This document shows positions 10,728-47,833 of a stretch of DNA of 64,000 nucleotides, piece after piece. Below the pieces are notes generated by a model. The model did no database searches. It was not told the DNA's origin and was given only the letters and a program-made list of their open reading frames with translations. Position 1 is the stretch's first letter; each line of letters opens with the position of its first letter. The DNA lies in contig KB445799.1 in NCBI GenBank assembly GCA_000320605.2, forward strand, positions 667,234-731,233, read 5' to 3'. Position numbers and translations under genes: made by a program. The stretch comes from Gelatoporia subvermispora B. Taxonomy: Eukaryota; Basidiomycota; Agaricomycetes; Polyporales; Gelatoporiaceae.

Positions 10728-11220
10728 ATGTTCGCCCTCAAGTCCATCATCGCCCTCGCCCTCCTCTCCGCGCCCGCATTCGTCCTCGCACGCCCGCAGG
10801 GCAGCAGCAGCGGCAGCGGTGGCCAGTGCAGCCCCGCGCAGATCCAGTGCTGCGACAATGTCGCCTCGGGCGACTCGGACCACATGCGCGCGGTCGCCAA
10901 GGCGCTCAACATGAACATCGACCCGAACATGACGTACGGCACGGGCTGCGCGGCGGGCGGGATGCCGGGTGCTGGCGGCATGCCGAATGCTGGCGGCATG
11001 GTTGGCGTCGGTGGCGGCACCACTTGGTAAGCGTGTTGATGTTGATTCGAGGGAGCGTTGTGCTGAAGTTTGGGACGTAGCACGTCAGCCCCCATGTGTT
11101 GCGAGGACAACAGTTTTGGAGGTACGAGTCAGAATAGAGAGCGTATGGATGGTTGCTGATCGCCCTTGCGGTTTAGGTCTCATCGGCATTGGCTGCGCGC
11201 CCATCCCCGTCAATGCGTAA
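10728..11220 (+). CDS. Class I hydrophobin with Gly/Met-rich C4-C5 loop
   Basis: Exons 10728-11026, 11081-11121 and 11177-11220 give 127 residues. The signal peptide starts MFALKSIIALALL and ends near FVLARPQ. All eight cysteines are present: C1, QCC, TGC, C5 split by intron 1, MCC and GIGC. The C4-C5 loop is about 25 residues because of a repeated GGMPGA/GGMPNA segment absent from the sister gene at 15950. This makes it the longest loop of the cluster and slightly longer than usual for class I. Donors are GTAAGC and GTACGA. A further intron is predicted in the 3' UTR at about 11274-11324. The upstream region is shared with the 15.9-kb gene. Confidence 0.92.
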
Positions 11221-13256: not shown

Positions 13257-13370
13257 CTGCACCCGCTCGCACTTAGTCTTCATCAGCCTCATCGTTCGCA
13301 GTTACTTGTTCATCTACTCATCCTCACTCTTCCGCCCTCTTCACCCTCCGTAACAACACAACAAGCAAAA

Positions 13371-14043
13371 ATGGTCTCCTTCAAGTCCATCGTCGTCTTC
13401 GCCCTCCTCTTTGCGCCCATGTTCGTCCTTGCGGCCCCGCACCCGCAGGGCAATGGCGGCAGTGGCGGCAACGGCAATGGCGGCACCGGCGGTAACGGCG
13501 GTAGCGGCAGCAGTGGCGGCAACAACGGCGGCAACAGCGGCAGCGGTAACAGTGGAAACAGCGGAAACAGTGGCAGCGGCAATAATGGTGGCAGCAACAA
13601 CAATGGAGGGAACAACGGCGGCAACAATGGGGGCAACAACGGCGGCAACAGCGGCAGCGGTAACAGTGGAGGCGGAAACAGCGGAAACAGCGGAGGCAAC
13701 AACGGCGGCAACGGCGGCAGTGGCGGGAACGGCGGCGGCGGCGGCAGTGGCGGTAACGGCGGTAACGGCAGGCGCAGCGACAGTGAGTGCAGTCCCGCCC
13801 AGATCCAGTTCTGCAACAACGCCGTCTTCGGTGACTCATACCGCATTCCCGCAGTCGACGCAAGGAACATCTATGGCACAGTCTACTCGAGGGACTCCGG
13901 CCTGACGAGTGCTTCGACCACGATATGCGACGAGAGCAGCGAGTCTGGAGGTACGAGGCAGATTAAGGAGCGTATGGGAGGTTGCTAATGCTGGACGCTT
14001 TTCAGATCTGATTAGCCTTGCCTGCACGCCCATTGATCTGTGA
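13371..14043 (+). CDS. Derived hydrophobin with Gly/Asn/Ser-rich insert
   Basis: Exons 13371-13950 and 14006-14043 give 205 residues. After a signal peptide (MVSFKSIVVFALL, cleavage near VLA-APHPQ) come about 107 residues (27-133) made almost only of Gly, Asn and Ser, then an Arg-Arg pair (134-135) and a reduced hydrophobin core. Retained cysteines are C1 (SEC), C3 (QFC; C2 is Phe), C6 (TIC) and C8 (SLAC). C4, C5 and C7 are lost. The intron that splits C5 in normal hydrophobins is absent here, apparently deleted with that codon, while the last intron (GTACGA donor) is kept and gives the DLISLACTPIDL end. A 3' UTR intron is predicted at 14093-14141. Secretion is expected; surface assembly like a normal hydrophobin is doubtful. 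Confidence 0.85.
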
Positions 14044-15797
14044 ATAGCGCTCCGTCGCGTGCACCTCGCATTCATACATTTGTTTATCTAGCGTGAGTCT
14101 GTTGGCCCACATATATCTGACGATGACTAACCTCTCAATAGAGCATCACCGAACGGTTTTTGAGGACTTTGGTATATATATGAACTGTCATACCTTTGAA
14201 TTAATGCTCGTGTCGTACGGCTTGTATGTTAATGCGTAGCATTCTCTACACGCGCAAACATTGGTTCCAATTGATTCAGCGATGCGATCCGCGAATTTGC
14301 TTGGTGATGGAAAAGTCCTTCATCATGACGATGTTCCGGACTACGCCTCGAGCCGTGTGTCACGAACGCGTTCAATATTCACGCTCACGTGCCCGTGATC
14401 GATCGCGTCGCGATCGAACCACGGGCTCAGGCGTCCTTGGCAAAGGTTATTCACGAAGATCGAGGGATCAGTAGCTTCAGCTCGAGCACAAGGTGAGAAA
14501 CTAGAGTGCTAAACAAATGCCAGGAGCGAAAGACATCGTATCAAGGCAGACAGATGGTACTATCCTTCTCGGGATTCTCCAAACACCATAAATTTGGGAA
14601 ACTACAGACTGCTCCCCTGAATTCCACACACAATCTCTTGAGCCAAGTCTTTTTGTAATATTCAGAGTCTGTCTGGATGATAATATGTTTCAAACACATG
14701 AGTAAAAACGACAGATCAATAATGGCTGCCTTTCAAGCTTCCACCATCTCAGACCGCTGCGAGTAACTTATAAGTAAATCAGTAGATCTGTGTGCATAGA
14801 CCCTGCGCGCCCTTATTTTCTTGCTTGTGGTATCACAAAGCAGTACCCTGGAGCCGTTTCCACCAACACGATTTGTTTCCAGTGCGCTGTGTCACCTTTC
14901 ACTTGCACCCCTTTGTGTTACGAGCATTGAATGTTGAGGCGTGACAACGTCAGCCACATCTTTAAGCTCCGCCAATACGCGTGCACGTGCCACGCACGCA
15001 ACGGCCCTCGTCGCAGAGTCGCAACGCAACGCTGTAAAGCTAAAGCTTGCACTCATTACGATGACTTTTGGCGCTATCTGTTTGTGCCAGGGACTTGTTC
15101 GAGCACCAAGCTCTCTCTGACATGTTACTTGACCAGTCAAGATGACAGCTCCCTGGCATAGTGGAAAAGGGCTGGATTTGGTAAATCGCTCGGATGCTGA
15201 GAAACTGCTCGATGGCACTCGACCGGATTGGTTCTGGCGTGCGGCACAAAGAATGTAGGACCCTCTTCGTATCAGCGTGGTCATTCGGTTCTTATCCAGA
15301 AGTGGACCGTCCGGCACCGCAGCGTTGCCGCCAATCACTTGGAGCAGGGCTATCCAGCTGCGGAGACTGACACCGAAGGTCTGCATGCTCGTGGATCCCG
15401 CTGCTCCAGGTCTCGCGCAAGTGCTGGAAGTCGCAACCTCGCAGGGCGCATATCCTGTTGGGCTCCCTTCGTACGCTCACTGCTATCGACATCGGAGATG
15501 CACGACACCAATGGGCTCCCATCGACACACTTCCCAACGAGCAGGACGCTTTTCTCCTCCGGATCGCTCAAACCGAACAGGACCCCGCCGTCGATGTTAG
15601 GACCTGTCGATTGACGTCCGCCGTAGTTCTGCGGCCCTGGGCCCCCGCGACTCTGCCTGCGATTCTGCTATCTCTGCGTCTGACAATCAGCGCGCCCCGC
15701 CGCTCGTCGGCCCTCTCACTCTTCGCGCGCTGCTACTTGCCGTTGCCCTCGCTGTCCATGGGCCGACCCATTCGTCATCCGCAACATCACGATCTTC
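14044..15797. other. Intergenic
   Basis: It holds the 3' UTR of the preceding gene, dispersed repeats to about 14560, an AT-richer stretch at 14560-14890 without recognisable content, and from 15040 a copy of the region upstream of the 10.7-kb hydrophobin. Confidence 0.5.
14380..14425 (+). repeat. Dispersed repeat with CACGTG and GATCGCG palindrome
   Basis: The core reads TCACGCTCACGTG, then about ten bases, then GATCGCGTCGCGATCGAACC. Related copies lie near 11550-11600 and 19785-19835 (plus), and near 29610-29660, 30000-30050, 30335-30390 and 34745-34795 (minus). More diverged copies lie near 17105, 21465, 26850, 43250 and 45455. Confidence 0.7.
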
Positions 15798-15949: not shown

Positions 15950-16398
15950 ATGTTCGCCCTCAAATCCATCGTCACCCTCGCCCTCCTCTCCGCACCTGCG
16001 TTCGTCCTCGCACGCCCGCAGGACAGCAGCAGCGGCCAGTGCAGCACCGCCCAGATCCAGTGCTGCGATACAATGGCGTCGGGCGACTCGGACCACATGC
16101 GCGCGGTCGGCAAGGCGCTCAAGATGGACATCGACCCGGGCAAGACGTACGGCACGGGCTGCACGGCTGGCGGCATGGCTGGCGTCGGTGGTGGCACTAC
16201 TTGGTAAGCGTGCTAGTGTTGATCCGAGGGAGCGTTGTTCTAATTTGGAACGTAGCACGTCGGCCCCGATGTGCTGCGAGAACAACGATTTTGGAGGTAC
16301 GAGGAGTTACAACAAGGAGCCCGTGGGAGGTTGGCTGATGATCACTGCATTTAGGTCTCATTGGCCTCGGCTGTATGTCCATCCCCATCAACCTGTAG
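15950..16398 (+). CDS. Class I hydrophobin, eight cysteines
   Basis: Exons 15950-16203, 16256-16296 and 16355-16398 give 112 residues. The signal peptide starts MFALKSIVTLALL and ends near FVLARPQ. The core has C1, QCC, TGC, a split C5 codon (TG/C), PMCC and GLGCMSIPINL, which fits class I. It is the sister of the 10.7-kb gene: about 0.9 kb of upstream sequence is also shared. It lacks the extra GGMP repeats in the C4-C5 loop. Donors are GTAAGC and GTACGA. A 3' UTR intron with a GTAAGT donor is predicted at 16441-16491. Confidence 0.92.
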
Positions 16399-18299: not shown

Positions 18300-18957
18300 T
18301 CACAGATTAATGGGCGCGCAGCCAAGGCTATTCAGATCTAAATTATGTCCGCCATTAGCAACCTCACATACAATCGTTAATCTGACTCGTACCTCCAGAA
18401 TCGTGGCCCTCGCCGCATGTCGTCAGGCTGGAGTCCCTCGAGTAGATTGTGCCATAGATGTTCCTTGCATCGACTGCGGGAATGTGGTATGAGTCACCCG
18501 AGACGGCGATGTTACAACAACGTATCTGGGCGGGGCTGCACTCACTGTCGCTGCGCCTGCCGTTGCCGCCGTTACCGCCGTTTCCTCCGCCGCCGCCATT
18601 GCCGCCACTGCCGCCGTTCCCGCCGTTGTTGCCTCCGCTGTTGCCGCTGTTGCCGCCTCCACTGTTGCCGCTGCCGCTGTTACCGCCGTTGTTGCCCCCA
18701 TTGTTGCCGCCGTTGTTCCCTCCATTGTTGTTGCTGCCACCGTTGTTGCCGCTGCCGCTGTTTCCACTGTTTCCGCTGTTGCCGCTACCGCTGTTGCCGC
18801 CATTGTTGCCGCCACTGCTGCCGCTACCGCCGTTACCGCCGGTGCCGCCATTGCCGTTGCCGCCACTGCCGCCATTGCCCTGCGGGTGCGGAGCCGCAAG
18901 GACGAACATGGGCGCGAACAGGAGGGCGAAGACGATGATGGATCTGAAGGAGACCAT
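18300..18957 (-). CDS. Derived hydrophobin with Gly/Asn/Ser-rich insert
   Basis: Exons 18957-18393 and 18337-18300 give 200 residues. Signal peptide MVSFRSIIVFALL. The Gly/Asn/Ser block has the same length and order as in the 13.4-kb gene, with only one residue difference noted (S to N near its end), and then Arg-Arg. The core retains C1 (SEC), both C2 and C3 (IRCC), C6 (TTC) and C8 (SLGC). C4 is Tyr, and C5 and C7 are lost, leaving five cysteines. Intron 1 is absent. The last intron has a GTACGA donor and leads to DLNSLGCAPINL. A 3' UTR intron (GTAAGT, CTAAC branch-like site, CAG) is predicted at 18250-18200. The gene is inverted relative to its relatives at 13.4 and 23.3 kb. Confidence 0.85.
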
Positions 18958-23256: not shown

Positions 23257-23920
23257 ATGGTCTCATTCAAATCCATCATCGTCTTCGCCCTCCTGTTCGC
23301 GCCCATGTTCGTCCTTGCGGCTCCGCACCCGCAGGGTGATGGCGGCAATGGCGGCAACGGCAATGGCGGTACTGGCGGTAACGGCGGCAGTGGCAGCAAT
23401 GGCGGCAACAACGGCGGCAACAGCGGCAGCGGTAACAGTGGAAACAGCGGCAACAGCGGCAGCGGCAACAACGGTGGCAGCAACAACAATGGAGGGAACA
23501 ACGGCGGCAACAATGGGGGCAACAACGGCGGTAACAGCGGCAGCGGCAACAGTGGAGGCGGCAACAGCGGCAACAGCGGAGGCAACAACGGCGGGAACGG
23601 CGGCAGTGGCGGCAATGGCGGCGGCGGCGGCAGTGGCGGCAACGGCGGCAACGGCAGGCGCAGCGAGGGTGAGTGCAGCGCAGCCTTAATCCAGTTCTGT
23701 GACAACGCCGTCTCCGGTGACTCATACCACGTTCCCGCAGCTATCTCATGGAACGACTACAGCACGGCCTGTTCGACGAACTCCGGCCTGCCGAGTGCTG
23801 GCGGCGAGGGCACCGGTTCTGGAGGTACGAGAAACCAGATCATGGAGCGTATGGGAGGTTGCTGACGGGGAATGCATTTCAGGACCCATTAGCCTTGGCT
23901 GCACGCCCATTGCTTTGTGA
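23257..23920 (+). CDS. Derived hydrophobin with Gly/Asn/Ser-rich insert
   Basis: Exons 23257-23824 and 23883-23920 give 201 residues. Signal peptide MVSFKSIIVFALL, then a Gly/Asn/Ser block collinear with the other copies with few replacements (for example S to N), Arg-Arg, then a core with C1 (GEC), C3 (QFC), C4 (TAC) and C8 (SLGC). C2, C5, C6 and C7 are gone, so this copy keeps C4 and loses C6, the opposite of the 13.4-kb gene. The core has changed much more than the Gly/Asn/Ser block. Intron 1 is absent. The last intron ends TTTCAG and gives GPISLGCTPIAL. A 3' UTR intron is predicted at 23970-24019. Confidence 0.85.
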
Positions 23921-29689: not shown

Positions 29690-29810
29690 GCCACCACTGT
29701 TCCCGCTGTTGTCGGCGCCGCCGTTGTCTGCGCCGCCGTTGCCGCAAGGACGAACATGGGCGCGAAGAGGAGGCCGAGGACGACGACACGCGCGGTACTC
29801 AGGTGAGTGT
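29690..29810 (-). pseudogene. Derived hydrophobin fragment
   Basis: The minus strand reads VVVLGLLFAPMFVLAA then a short Thr/Ala-rich tail, matching the signal peptide of the derived hydrophobins. There is no start Met in place, no Gly/Asn/Ser block of normal length and no core; the match stops at the dispersed repeat. Confidence 0.7.
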
Positions 29811-30409
29811 AGATACTGCCTGCTGTGGCTGACAAGTGACACGTCTTGGATGCCAGCTGGAATTGACACTGTATGGGCGGCTCTTTGGATATGCTGGATG
29901 GACACTAATCGCGCCGACTAGGCCGTTTCGAACTTTTGACGCTGCAATGCATCGTTCTCGCAATGGCCATGCATGCTGTGCCAAGGACGCCTGAATCCAT
30001 GGTTCGATCGCGACGCGATCGGTAACGGGCACGTGAGCGTGAATATTGAACGCGTTCGTGACAAACGGCTCGAGACGTAGTCCGGAACACCGTCATGACG
30101 AAGGATTGTCCGTCACCAGCCAAACTCACACATCGCATCGCTAGATCAATCGAAACCCTCCACACCATCTGTCCGCCTGGACGCGATCTCCTTCGCTTCT
30201 GGTCAGTACCTTATTTTCTCCGCTTGCGCTTGAACCTTGAGCTTAATCTGCTGATTCTGTCCGGCCTTCGTGATTAGCCTACTCCGGAGATGAGTGACTC
30301 TGGCTCCGCCAAGGACGCCTGAGGAGTCAGCACGCCCATGGTTCGATCGCGATGCGATCAGTAACGGACACGTGAGCGCGACTGGCGCGTCGATGACATC
30401 GGACTCCGC

Positions 30410-30500
30410 CGCCACTGTTGCCGCTACGCTGTTCTCGCCGTTGCCGCAGGGCCCACGGACATGGGCGCGAAGAGGAGGGCGAAGACGGCGACACGCGTGT
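30410..30500 (-). pseudogene. Derived hydrophobin fragment
   Basis: The minus strand reads VAVFALLFAPMSVGPAAT-like, a second truncated signal-peptide exon in the tandem unit that also carries the 29.7-kb fragment. No cysteine core follows. Confidence 0.65.
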
Positions 30501-35130: not shown

Positions 35131-35875
35131 TCACAAAGCAACGGGCGTGCAGTCAAGGCTAATGAGATCTAAGACACATCCACCATCAGCAACCTCCGAT
35201 ACGCTTCCTAATATAACTCGTACCTCCAGACTCGCTGCTCTCGCCGCATATCGGGACCGGAGCGCTGCAACCCAAGAATCAGAACAACGCCCTCCTGCAA
35301 ATCCACACTAACACTCACTGAGACGCGCTGCGAGCTTTCGTCAGGCCGGAGTCCCGCGCGTAGGCCGTACCGTAGATGCTCCTCGCGTCGACTGGGGGTA
35401 TGTGGTCTGAGCGGCCGGAGACGGCGATGTCGCAGAACTCGATAAGGGCTGTGTTGCACTCACCGCCGCCGGTGCTACTGCCGTTACCGCCGTTGCCGCC
35501 ATTGCCTCCGCCACCGCCATTGCCGCCACTGCCGCCGTTGCCGCCGTTGTTGCCTCCACTGTTGCCGCTGTTGCCGCCTCCACTGTTGCCGCTGCCGCTG
35601 TTCCCGCCATTGTTTCCACCGTTGTTTCCGCCGTTGTTCCCGCCGTTGTTGTTGCTGCCGCCGTTGTTGCCGCTGCCGCTGTTACCGCTGTTTCCACTGT
35701 TGCCGCTGCCGCTGTTACCGCCGTTGTTGCCGCCACTGCTGCCGCTGCCGCCGTTACCGCCGGTACCGCCGTTGCCGGCGCCGCCATTGCCTCCATTGCC
35801 GCCCTGCGGGGCTGCAAGGACGAACATGGGCGCGAAGAGGAGTGCAAAGACGATGATGGACTTGAAAGAGACCAT
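35131..35875 (-). CDS. Derived hydrophobin that keeps intron 1
   Basis: Exons 35875-35319, 35264-35224 and 35168-35131 give 211 residues. Signal peptide MVSFKSIIVFALL, then the usual Gly/Asn/Ser block. The junction reads NGSSTGGGEC, so this is the only intact copy without Arg-Arg. Cysteines are C1, C3 (EFC), C6 (PIC) and C8 (SLDC); C4 is Tyr and C7 is Gly. Intron 1 is present at the ancestral place but splits CA/C, so the residue at C5 is His. The other intact derived genes lack intron 1 altogether, so this copy appears to be an intermediate. The end is DLISLDCTPVAL. A reader using only unspliced frames would stop early at SASQ. Confidence 0.82.
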
Positions 35876-40017: not shown

Positions 40018-40681
40018 TCACAACGCGATGGGCGTGCAGCCAAGACTAATGGGTCCTAAAACGCAGCCGCCATCAGCAAACTCCTATACAGTCCCTGATC
40101 TGACCCCTCGTACCTCCAGAAACGGTGCCCTTGCCGCCAGCACTCGGCAGGCCGGAGTCTGTCGAGCAGGCTGTGCTGTAGATGTCCCTTGCGTCGACTG
40201 TGGGGATGTGGTATGAGTCACCCGAGACGAGGTTGTTGCAGAACTGGATCTGGACGGGACTACACTTACCAACGCTGCGCCTGCCGTTGCCGCCGTTGCC
40301 TCCACTGCCGCCACCGCCGCCGTTACCGCCACTGCCGCCGTTCCCGCCGTTGTTGCCGCCGCTGTTGCCGCTGTTGCCTCCGCCACTGTTGCCGCTGCCG
40401 CTGTTCCCGCCGTTGTTGCCGCCATTGTTGCCGCCATTGTTGCCGCCATTGTTGTTGCTGCCACCGTTGTTGCCGCTACCACTGTTACCGCTGTTGCCGC
40501 TGTTACCGCTGCCGCTGTTGCCGCCGTTGTTGCCGCCACTGCTACCGCTGCCGCCATTACCGCCGGTCCCGCCGTTGCCGTTGCCGCCACTGCCGCCATC
40601 GCCCTGCGGGTGCGGGGCCGCAAGGACAAACATGGGCGCGAAGAGGAGGGCGAAGACGATGATGGACTTGAAAGAGACCAT
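40018..40681 (-). CDS. Derived hydrophobin with Gly/Asn/Ser-rich insert
   Basis: Exons 40681-40114 and 40055-40018 give 201 residues. Signal peptide MVSFKSIIVFALL, a Gly/Asn/Ser block collinear with the other copies (starting with Asp instead of Asn after PQG), Arg-Arg, then C1 (GKC), C3 (QFC), C4 (TAC) and C8 (SLGC). C2, C5, C6 and C7 are lost, as in the 23.3-kb gene, whose GLPSAGG sequence it also shares. The two are therefore sisters although on opposite strands. Intron 1 is absent. The end is GPISLGCTPIAL. A 3' UTR intron is predicted at 39968-39918. Confidence 0.85.
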
Positions 40682-44571: not shown

Positions 44572-45118
44572 ATGCTCACTTTCAGGTCCATCATCGTCTT
44601 TGCCCTCCTCTTCGCCCCAACGCTCGTTCTTGCGGCCCCGGCCCCGCAGGGCGGCAGTAACAACGGCAACAACGCTGGCAACAGCAACAACAGCAATGGC
44701 AACAATGGCAACGGCAACAATGGCAGTGGTACTGGCGGCAACAGCGGCAACGGCGGCAGCAGCGGCAACAACGGCAGCAGCGGCAACAACGGCAGCGGCG
44801 GCAACAGCGGCAACAGCGGCGGCAACAGCGGTAATGGCGGTAACGGCAGGCGCAGCAACGGTGAGTGCAACACAGCCCAGGTCCAGTCCTGCAACAACGC
44901 CGTTCCGGGTGACTCAGACCCCATGTCCGCAGTCGACGCGAGCAAGATATACGGCACGGCCTGCTCGATGGGCTCTGGCCTGATGAATGCCGGCGGCGAG
45001 CGCAGCGATTTCAGAGGTACGAGGAGTCTGATTAGGCAGTATGTGGGCTTGGAGATTGCTAATGGCGGATGCGATTTTAGGTCTTATCAGCCTTGACTGC
45101 TCGCCCATTGCTTTGTGA
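44572..45118 (+). CDS. Derived hydrophobin with shorter Gly/Asn/Ser insert
   Basis: Exons 44572-45016 and 45081-45118 give 160 residues. Signal peptide MLTFRSIIVFALL, cleavage near VLA-APAPQ. The low-complexity block is about 66 residues (27-92), with a different, Asn-richer order than the other copies, followed by Arg-Arg at 93-94. Cysteines are C1 (GEC), C3 (QSC), C4 (TAC) and C8 (SLDC), so this copy belongs to the C4-keeping group. Intron 1 is absent. The end is GLISLDCSPIAL. A 3' UTR intron of 48 nt (GTAAGT, GACTAAC, CAG) is predicted at 45168-45215. A close but broken relative lies at 47226. Confidence 0.85.
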
Positions 45119-47225: not shown

Positions 47226-47833
47226 ATGCTCACTTTTCAAGTCCATCATCGTCCTTGCCCTCCTCCTTGCGCCCACGCTCGTCCTTGCGGCCCCGCAGGG
47301 CGGCATTAACAGCGGCAGCAGCGGCAACGGTGGCAGCGGCAACAGTGGTAACAGTGGTAACAGTGGCAGCAGCGGCAACGGCGGCAACAGCGGTAACGGC
47401 GATAATGGCAGCAGCGGCAGCAACAGTGGCAACAGTGGTAACAGCGGCAACAGCGGCAACAGCAGTAATACCAGGCGCACCGGCGGTGAGTGCTACGTAG
47501 CCCATGTCTATTTCTGCAACAACACCGTCCCGGGTGACTGAGACCACATTCCCGCAGTCGACGCGAGCAAGATATACGACACGCCCTGCTCGATGGGCTC
47601 CGGTATGATGAGTGCCGGCGACGGGTCTTGGTGGGTGCCGGTGTAGATTCGCAGAAGGGCATTGTTCTGATTCTTGTGATGCAGCACTTCTGTCCCTATT
47701 TGCGATGAGGCTAATGGATTTGGCAGTACGAGGCATCAGATTAGGGAGCGTGTTGAAGGTCGCTGAGGGTGGCTGCATTCTAGGTCTCATTCACCTTGGC
47801 TGCACGCCCATCCTCGGGCCTGTCAATGTGTGA
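47226..47833 (+). pseudogene. Derived hydrophobin broken by frameshift and nonsense
   Basis: A close relative of the 44.6-kb gene. One extra T after codon 3 (ACTTTTCAAGTCC instead of ACTTTCAAGTCC) throws the frame off within the signal peptide. In the restored reading the Gly/Asn/Ser block, Arg-Arg and C1 (GEC) can be followed, but GTGACTGAG gives a stop right after TVPGD. Downstream, the C4 region (TPCSMGSG), intron 1 splitting a TG/C cysteine codon (C5), CTSVPICDEANGFG with C6 but not C7, and the LIHLGCTPI end are still present. This copy therefore preserves C5 and intron 1, which the other derived genes except the 35.1-kb one have lost. Confidence 0.82.

Follow-up and report, generated by a model that had tools for sequence, protein, structure and literature searches.

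Hydrophobin-derived paralogues of Gelatoporia subvermispora B join a residue-conserved Gly/Asn/Ser block to a degenerate cysteine core

The low-complexity tails found on secreted proteins tend to be regarded as linkers that change quickly. Several hydrophobins with tails of this kind have been described: QID3 of Trichoderma harzianum, a class II pseudohydrophobin, bears a Gly/Asn-rich extended N-terminus and has one conserved Cys replaced by Ser (PMC2253510), and wall binding was proposed for its tail by Lora et al. (as cited in PMC2253510). A survey of hydrophobins with an extended N-terminus (70 or more residues ahead of the first Cys) includes Gly/Ser/Asn-rich tails and reports that extended tails are poorly conserved and cores better conserved; phase separation has been suggested for these tails (PMC12375992). 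In CFTH1 and CPPH1 of Claviceps and HCF6 of Passalora fulva, Gly/Asn repeats adjoin hydrophobin units, and such GN repeats have been likened to prion-type assembly and proposed as recombination targets (PMC2253510).

Here we describe genes from the wood-rotting polypore G. subvermispora B (Gelatoporiaceae) in a window of 64 000 nucleotides, the whole stretch of DNA that was analysed (C9:667234–731233). Five genes of the window encode a signal-peptide-like N-terminus, a Gly/Asn/Ser block and a degenerate hydrophobin core: g13 (13371..14043, + strand; exons 13371–13950 and 14006–14043; block of 106 residues at 13452–13769; four core cysteines), g18 (18300..18957, − strand; block 18559–18876; five core cysteines), g23 (23257..23920, + strand; block 23338–23655; four), g35 (35131..35875, − strand; three exons with intron 1 kept; block 35480–35800; four; without a dibasic site) and g40 (40018..40681, − strand; block 40283–40600; four). 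A sixth full-length copy, L029, lies ∼4 kb beyond the window at C9:662859–663458. The interval 13371–14043, to which a previous sequence-only reading of the window had assigned the block, is exactly the g13 gene including exon 3, the block proper covering only 13452–13769. A relative with a different, shorter block of 65 residues, g44, is found at 44572..45118 (+ strand; block 44653–44847), and two distant relatives, L031 and L032, at C9:757.6–758.5 kb and C9:752.2–753.0 kb, respectively. Two relatives are pseudogenes: g47 (47226..47800, + strand, the end being approximate) with a frameshift near its start and an in-frame TGA at 47539, and the related L033 (C10:989861). Both have short blocks and a frameshift near the start or the block, and the TGA seemingly falls at one shared core codon. 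The window also holds intact class I hydrophobin genes, among them h16 (15950..16398, + strand; eight cysteines, three exons; product CERSUDRAFT_96121), h10 with a related core (10728..11220, + strand; product CERSUDRAFT_84984) and h27 (27.9 kb, − strand; product CERSUDRAFT_96125).

The block proteins resemble QID3 in combining a Gly/Asn-rich N-terminal tail with a hydrophobin-type core short of cysteine. However, QID3 is an ascomycete class II protein that lost one Cys, whereas the present proteins come from a basidiomycete, derive from class I and usually retain four of the eight cysteines; their tail, moreover, is composed of Gly, Asn and Ser and is conserved residue by residue among paralogues. 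With 106–107 Gly/Asn/Ser residues they exceed the ∼64–70 Gly/Asn-rich residues before C1 by which an extended N-terminus is recognized, and, as in the extended-tail hydrophobins, their first Cys is preceded by at least 70 residues; unlike in the surveyed proteins (PMC12375992) the constraint is inverted here, the tail being more conserved than the core. A complete eight-Cys core behind the tail was not found in the block genes, and QID3 itself is one Cys short. CFTH1, CPPH1 and HCF6 likewise carry a Gly/Asn stretch beside a hydrophobin-type unit, but are set apart by their description as class II (for Claviceps according to PMC12375992) and, in the case of the Claviceps multi-unit proteins, by three or five hydrophobin units. 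The Ustilago maydis proteins Hum3/Rep1, also compared by description, have 31–55-residue repeats with many Kex2 sites; Hum3 resembles the block proteins in linking its repeats, which have putative Kex2 sites, to a hydrophobin domain (PMC4617103). The earlier remark that no named hydrophobin class with such an insert is known is not tenable, since Gly/Asn-rich extended N-termini are on record in QID3, HCF6 and the Claviceps polyhydrophobins (PMC2253510, PMC12375992). As far as the literature was compared, novelty lies in the class I basidiomycete lineage, in how many cysteines are lost and, most of all, in the inverted constraint. Searches of open-licence PMC papers listed none on these block genes, although one may exist.

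Gene structure ties the block genes to the intact hydrophobins. Spliced at equivalent canonical sites, h10, h16 and h27 yield the annotated G. subvermispora B proteins letter for letter, which supports the splice sites of the block genes. Gene models cover nine genes (the six block genes, g44, L031 and L032; the pseudogenes g47 and L033 were left out): all nine have a donor G/GTACGA with an acceptor 55–64 nt downstream, and in all nine, just as in the intact genes, exon 3 closes with L-x-C-x-P-[IV]-x-L-stop. Because intron 2 and the exon 3 ending are kept throughout, the nine modelled genes look live. Intron 1 is retained only in g35 and L031, with 54 nt in each. In some copies the reading frame continues beyond the intron-2 donor; the conserved pattern is that of two or three exons. 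CERSUDRAFT_96121, 84984 and 96125 share with the block genes the core start C-x-x-A-Q-[IV]-Q, the position of intron 2 and exon 3, but in them only a short spacer separates the signal peptide from C1, and all eight cysteines are present. A TATA-like element, TACAAAAGC, common to block genes and the intact h10 and h16, is present 122–126 nt upstream of the ATG in four of the five window block genes (not g18) and also lies upstream of g44; it was not found near h3, h8, h25 and h27, where the start positions of h3, h8 and h27 are inexact. The shared core sequence, together with the position of the intron and with exon 3, thus indicates common descent with intact class I members, and an h16-type gene is the kind of ancestor from which the block genes derive.

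Canonical hydrophobins form the disulfides C1–C6, C2–C5, C3–C4 and C7–C8. The eight-Cys pattern C-CC-C-C-CC-C of class I hydrophobins (PF01185) is present in none of the nine modelled genes. Four core cysteines are left in five of the six full-length copies and five in g18, L029 having one additional Cys inside the block; g44 and L031 have four and L032 three, so that seven of nine cores contain four. In comparison to the eight-Cys neighbours, C2 is replaced by Phe in seven of the nine genes and by Ser in g44, and is retained in g18; C5 and C7 are lost in all of them. C4 and C6 are mutually exclusive throughout: g13, g18, g35, L029 and L031 carry C6, whereas g23, g40, g44 and L032 carry C4, and L032 is also devoid of C1. 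The pseudogene g47 seemingly retains both C4 and C6. Four core cysteines would suffice for two disulfides; in the canonical pairing one native pair would be left and the two orphans could re-pair. None of three full-length block proteins (g13, g40 and g35) gave a Pfam match at E ≤ 1. Searched alone against PF01185, three of eight cores scored below the cut-off (15.3, 17.5 and 20.3 bits versus 23) and five were unmatched, while the h16 control reached 64.6 bits (1.3e-17). A genome search with the class II family PF06766 returned no match, although its controls matched nothing either, and AlphaFold models of the unspliced exon-1 products of the five window genes had a mean pLDDT of 38, giving no confident structure and no information on the fold. 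The 'adjacent hydrophobin core' of the sequence-only reading is thus hydrophobin-derived, but degenerate, with about half of its cysteines lost: the block proteins are hydrophobin descendants, not hydrophobins by the defining features.

The block behaves very differently. Its length is 106, 106, 106, 107, 106 and 106 residues in g13, g18, g23, g35, g40 and L029, respectively, and its order is identical, so the earlier description of a same-length, same-order block in five genes stands and extends to the sixth copy. Composition ranges from 51 to 53% Gly, 25 to 30% Asn and 15 to 19% Ser in the six full-length blocks, and across g13 residues 54–132 the five window copies differ at a single position, 126 (S or N). 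Among the 106 codon columns of the six copies, 44 are invariant, 52 differ by silent changes only and 10 change the residue, without gaps; both the few replacements and the synonymous excess noticed earlier are real, as is the quoted difference between CACCGGCGGT and TACTGGCGGT, which is seen in the codon alignment of g13 and g23. Seven of the ten residue changes lie within the first 26 block positions, and five are unique to L029. In the core, which was correctly said to differ at many residues, 9 columns are invariant, 9 are silent-only, 47 change the residue and 14 contain gaps. The ratio of silent-only to residue-changing columns therefore differs strongly between block and core (52/10 versus 9/47, Fisher P = 6e-14), and less clearly between the block and the 27-codon signal segment (9/6, P = 0.07).

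Substitution rates, all of which compare paralogues of a single genome, were determined separately for block and core, as had been suggested earlier, and proved unequal. Pooled over six copies (Nei–Gojobori), the block has a dS of 0.465, a dN of 0.020 and a dN/dS of 0.044, which falls to 0.016 in its last 82 codons; pairwise values are 0.22–0.84 for dS and 0.004–0.046 for dN. The signal peptide with APHPQG gave a pooled dN/dS of 0.145, and the core 0.62 (C1–C4 0.43; C4 to the end 1.09, within which exon 3 has 0.47). A crude neutral simulation with matched silent change yielded ∼78 nonsynonymous differences per pair versus 4.9 observed. We compared codon models in IQ-TREE (GY, omega free versus held at 1, taking GY{1.0} as omega 1; only likelihoods were used): both the block (2dlnL 144) and a module of 37 codons taken from eight genes (2dlnL 144.6) depart from neutrality, the signal peptide gave 15.3, and for the core neutrality was not clearly rejected (2dlnL 2.6, P 0.11). 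A neutral core is not a firm conclusion, because 2dlnL is 6.5 for two parameters when kappa is also held at 2. Given the tiny dN/dS, the deep silent divergence and the rejection of neutrality by maximum likelihood, strong purifying selection on the block protein sequence is well supported. The rate of the core, on the other hand, is not special among hydrophobin paralogues: 21 pairs of intact cores gave dN/dS values from 0.16 (h3–h8) to well above 1 in several cases, with 0.22–0.24 for h10 and h16 versus L019 and 0.57 for h10–h16, several of the dS values being low or unstable and h27 being cut to 35 codons. Since intact hydrophobin cores here also diverge fast, the case for core decay rests on the lost cysteines.

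Part of the block is shared with the distant relatives, whose blocks measure 201 (L031) and 169 (L032) residues. A 59-residue stretch of L031 is one residue off five of the six copies and three off L029, with a dS of 0.70–1.16 and a dN of 0.007–0.022 against the six; for a 52-residue stretch of L032 the values are 0.58–0.84 and 0.008–0.050, the upper end being L029. The constancy of length proposed by the sequence-only reading hence applies within the group of six but not to the relatives with 65, 169 and 201 residues: block length varies in the family, as L031 and L032 are longer and g44 is shorter, and conservation concerns a module and, within the six, the block as a whole. N-glycosylation sequons are absent from all six blocks, compared with 5.0–5.6 per shuffled block (plain shuffling of non-independent paralogues), whereas g44, L031 and L032 contain four, nine and two. 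When two block proteins were searched against the genome, at least 16 and at least 19 matches resulted, all of them at sites of the family except one at h10. C9 and other contigs carry further hydrophobin loci (L001–L022), clusters among them; wherever a first exon was visible, only a short spacer separates the signal peptide from the core and the Gly/Asn/Ser block is lacking.

Of the two causes offered earlier for the likeness of the blocks, selection is the one supported by the rates (dN/dS 0.044, 2dlnL 144). Gene conversion confined to the block, instead of selection on its residues, would be a very improbable explanation, even though some exchange between copies probably occurred. The longest identical run of g18 and g23 spans gene nucleotides 200–368 and includes 33 polymorphic sites (P = 0.0005 by permutation, with no correction for the 15 pairs), and the two group together in the signal-plus-block tree (68/72), a clade rejected by the core, intron 2 and 3′ flank data (P-AU 9e-6), whose own tree has three well-supported inner branches (g18 with L029, then g13; g23 with g40). 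Such exchange would fit the proposal of GN repeats as recombination targets (PMC2253510). However, the signal-plus-block tree is poorly resolved and its data are compatible with the flank clades (P-AU 0.083, 0.21 and 0.23), and block third positions differ by 0.13–0.35, much as intron 2 (0.11–0.35) and the next 250 bases of 3′ flank (0.15–0.40). The flank sisters g18 and L029 are silently even more diverged in the block (dS 0.51) than in the core (0.18), and the module common to L031 has a dS of 0.70–1.16; as conversion cannot spare residues and yet leave silent differences, it is not the sole cause. Equally improbable is that the genes are functionless, decaying hydrophobin duplicates and that their conservation merely reflects a recent common origin: the pseudogenes g47 and L033, fragments at 29.7 and 30.4 kb and a core dN/dS not clearly distinct from 1 would agree with it, but block dS of 0.22–0.84 with dN of 0.004–0.046, the rejection of block neutrality and open frames with splice sites in nine genes speak against it. 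A constraint at the level of DNA or RNA, or on an antisense Pro/Leu frame, in place of one on the sense protein is hardly credible at all. Each of the five window blocks is indeed spanned by a long open antisense frame (e.g. 13310–13870, − strand), which follows from the codons CCN, CTN and TTN, as these cannot be stops; yet block silent sites vary freely, and 12 of 18 variable third sites before Asn switch antisense Leu/Phe, the same kind of base switch being found in 10 of 18 Gly sites not before Asn. As the Leu/Phe switches are as common as the control switches, we rejected an antisense-frame constraint.

With selection on the protein as the preferred reading, we lean, by a small margin of confidence, towards secreted, hydrophobin-derived proteins in which the selected function resides in the N-terminal Gly/Asn/Ser tail rather than in the cysteine core. 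Judged from the sequence, the tail may be an unglycosylated, extended and flexible exported chain that would bind or assemble in the fungal wall or extracellular matrix via backbone and Asn/Ser hydrogen bonds, a role which would need a fixed residue order and would be close to the wall binding suggested for the QID3 tail. The shrunken core with about two disulfides might then serve as a small anchor or carrier; it keeps the hydrophobin gene structure (intron 2, exon 3), has lost cysteines and evolves at a rate close to neutral. That the chain, although it looks disordered, is the residue-exact functional part of a protein whose hydrophobin fold is being discarded, with a specific role that depends on its sequence (as a wall ligand, as a peptide set free or in an ordered polyglycine-like assembly), is a tentative possibility. 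Rather unlikely, in our estimate, is the variant in which the block is the product, a Kex2-like cut at Arg-Arg freeing an exact Gly/Asn/Ser peptide of ∼110 residues from a core that is a discarded carrier. Arg-Arg is less favoured by Kex2 than Lys-Arg. It stands directly between block and core in five of the six full-length copies, in g44 and L032 and also in the pseudogenes g47 and L033, but Ser-Ser replaces it in g35 and L031, and the block of g35 is nevertheless the same. There are no dibasic sites inside the block; the lone Arg-Arg follows it in five of six copies, unlike the many-site Kex2 repeats. Such a release would account for the unlike evolution of block and core, and a precedent exists in Ustilago, where Kex2 cuts Rep1 and Hum3 combines repeats with putative Kex2 sites and a hydrophobin domain (PMC4617103), whereas the open core frames with four cysteines in most copies suggest that the core is still used.

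For a secreted protein with selection on its tail, these data suggest that a 'filler' Gly/Asn/Ser stretch is what natural selection keeps. The reverse of the usual relation between tail and core constraint is measurable here, and one of the comparisons involves heavy silent divergence (dS about 1). Should orthologues show it as well, the family would offer a natural, alignable case of a Gly/Asn/Ser chain whose individual residues matter, and with it a route to asking what such chains do in cell walls or surface films. There is also a warning in this: genes of this kind can escape a search for hydrophobins that relies on the cysteine pattern or on Pfam. A relative of g13, the sole block query, was not found in a collection of 5.8 billion proteins that holds the intact cluster neighbours, nor was any protein combining the insert with a hydrophobin core, a search for which had been proposed earlier; the block genes may therefore be missing from the published gene set, being either unannotated or not expressed. 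The g13 core (residues 134–205) had four candidates in this collection, none at E ≤ 0.01. Whole g13 had eight matches at E ≤ 0.001, all Gly/Asn/Ser-rich and five of them named Mesorhizobium proteins, which we took as low-complexity matches because none has a hydrophobin-like core. The five matches of h16 were three G. subvermispora hydrophobins, one Obba rivulosa hydrophobin and one metagenome protein. Among solved structures, nine distinct sequences appeared at E ≤ 1 (best 0.0018) and were dropped as molecules unrelated by name.

Further remnants are scattered through the cluster. Truncated fragments at 29732–29773 and 30438–30478 (− strand) contain the signal-peptide end (LLFAPM...) and a few block-like codons and then run into other sequence. 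The cluster also contains three copies of an element around CACGCTCACGTGCCCGT, at 14380 (+ strand) and at 30025 and 34772 (− strand); this repeat may be a small mobile one or may be related to recombination.
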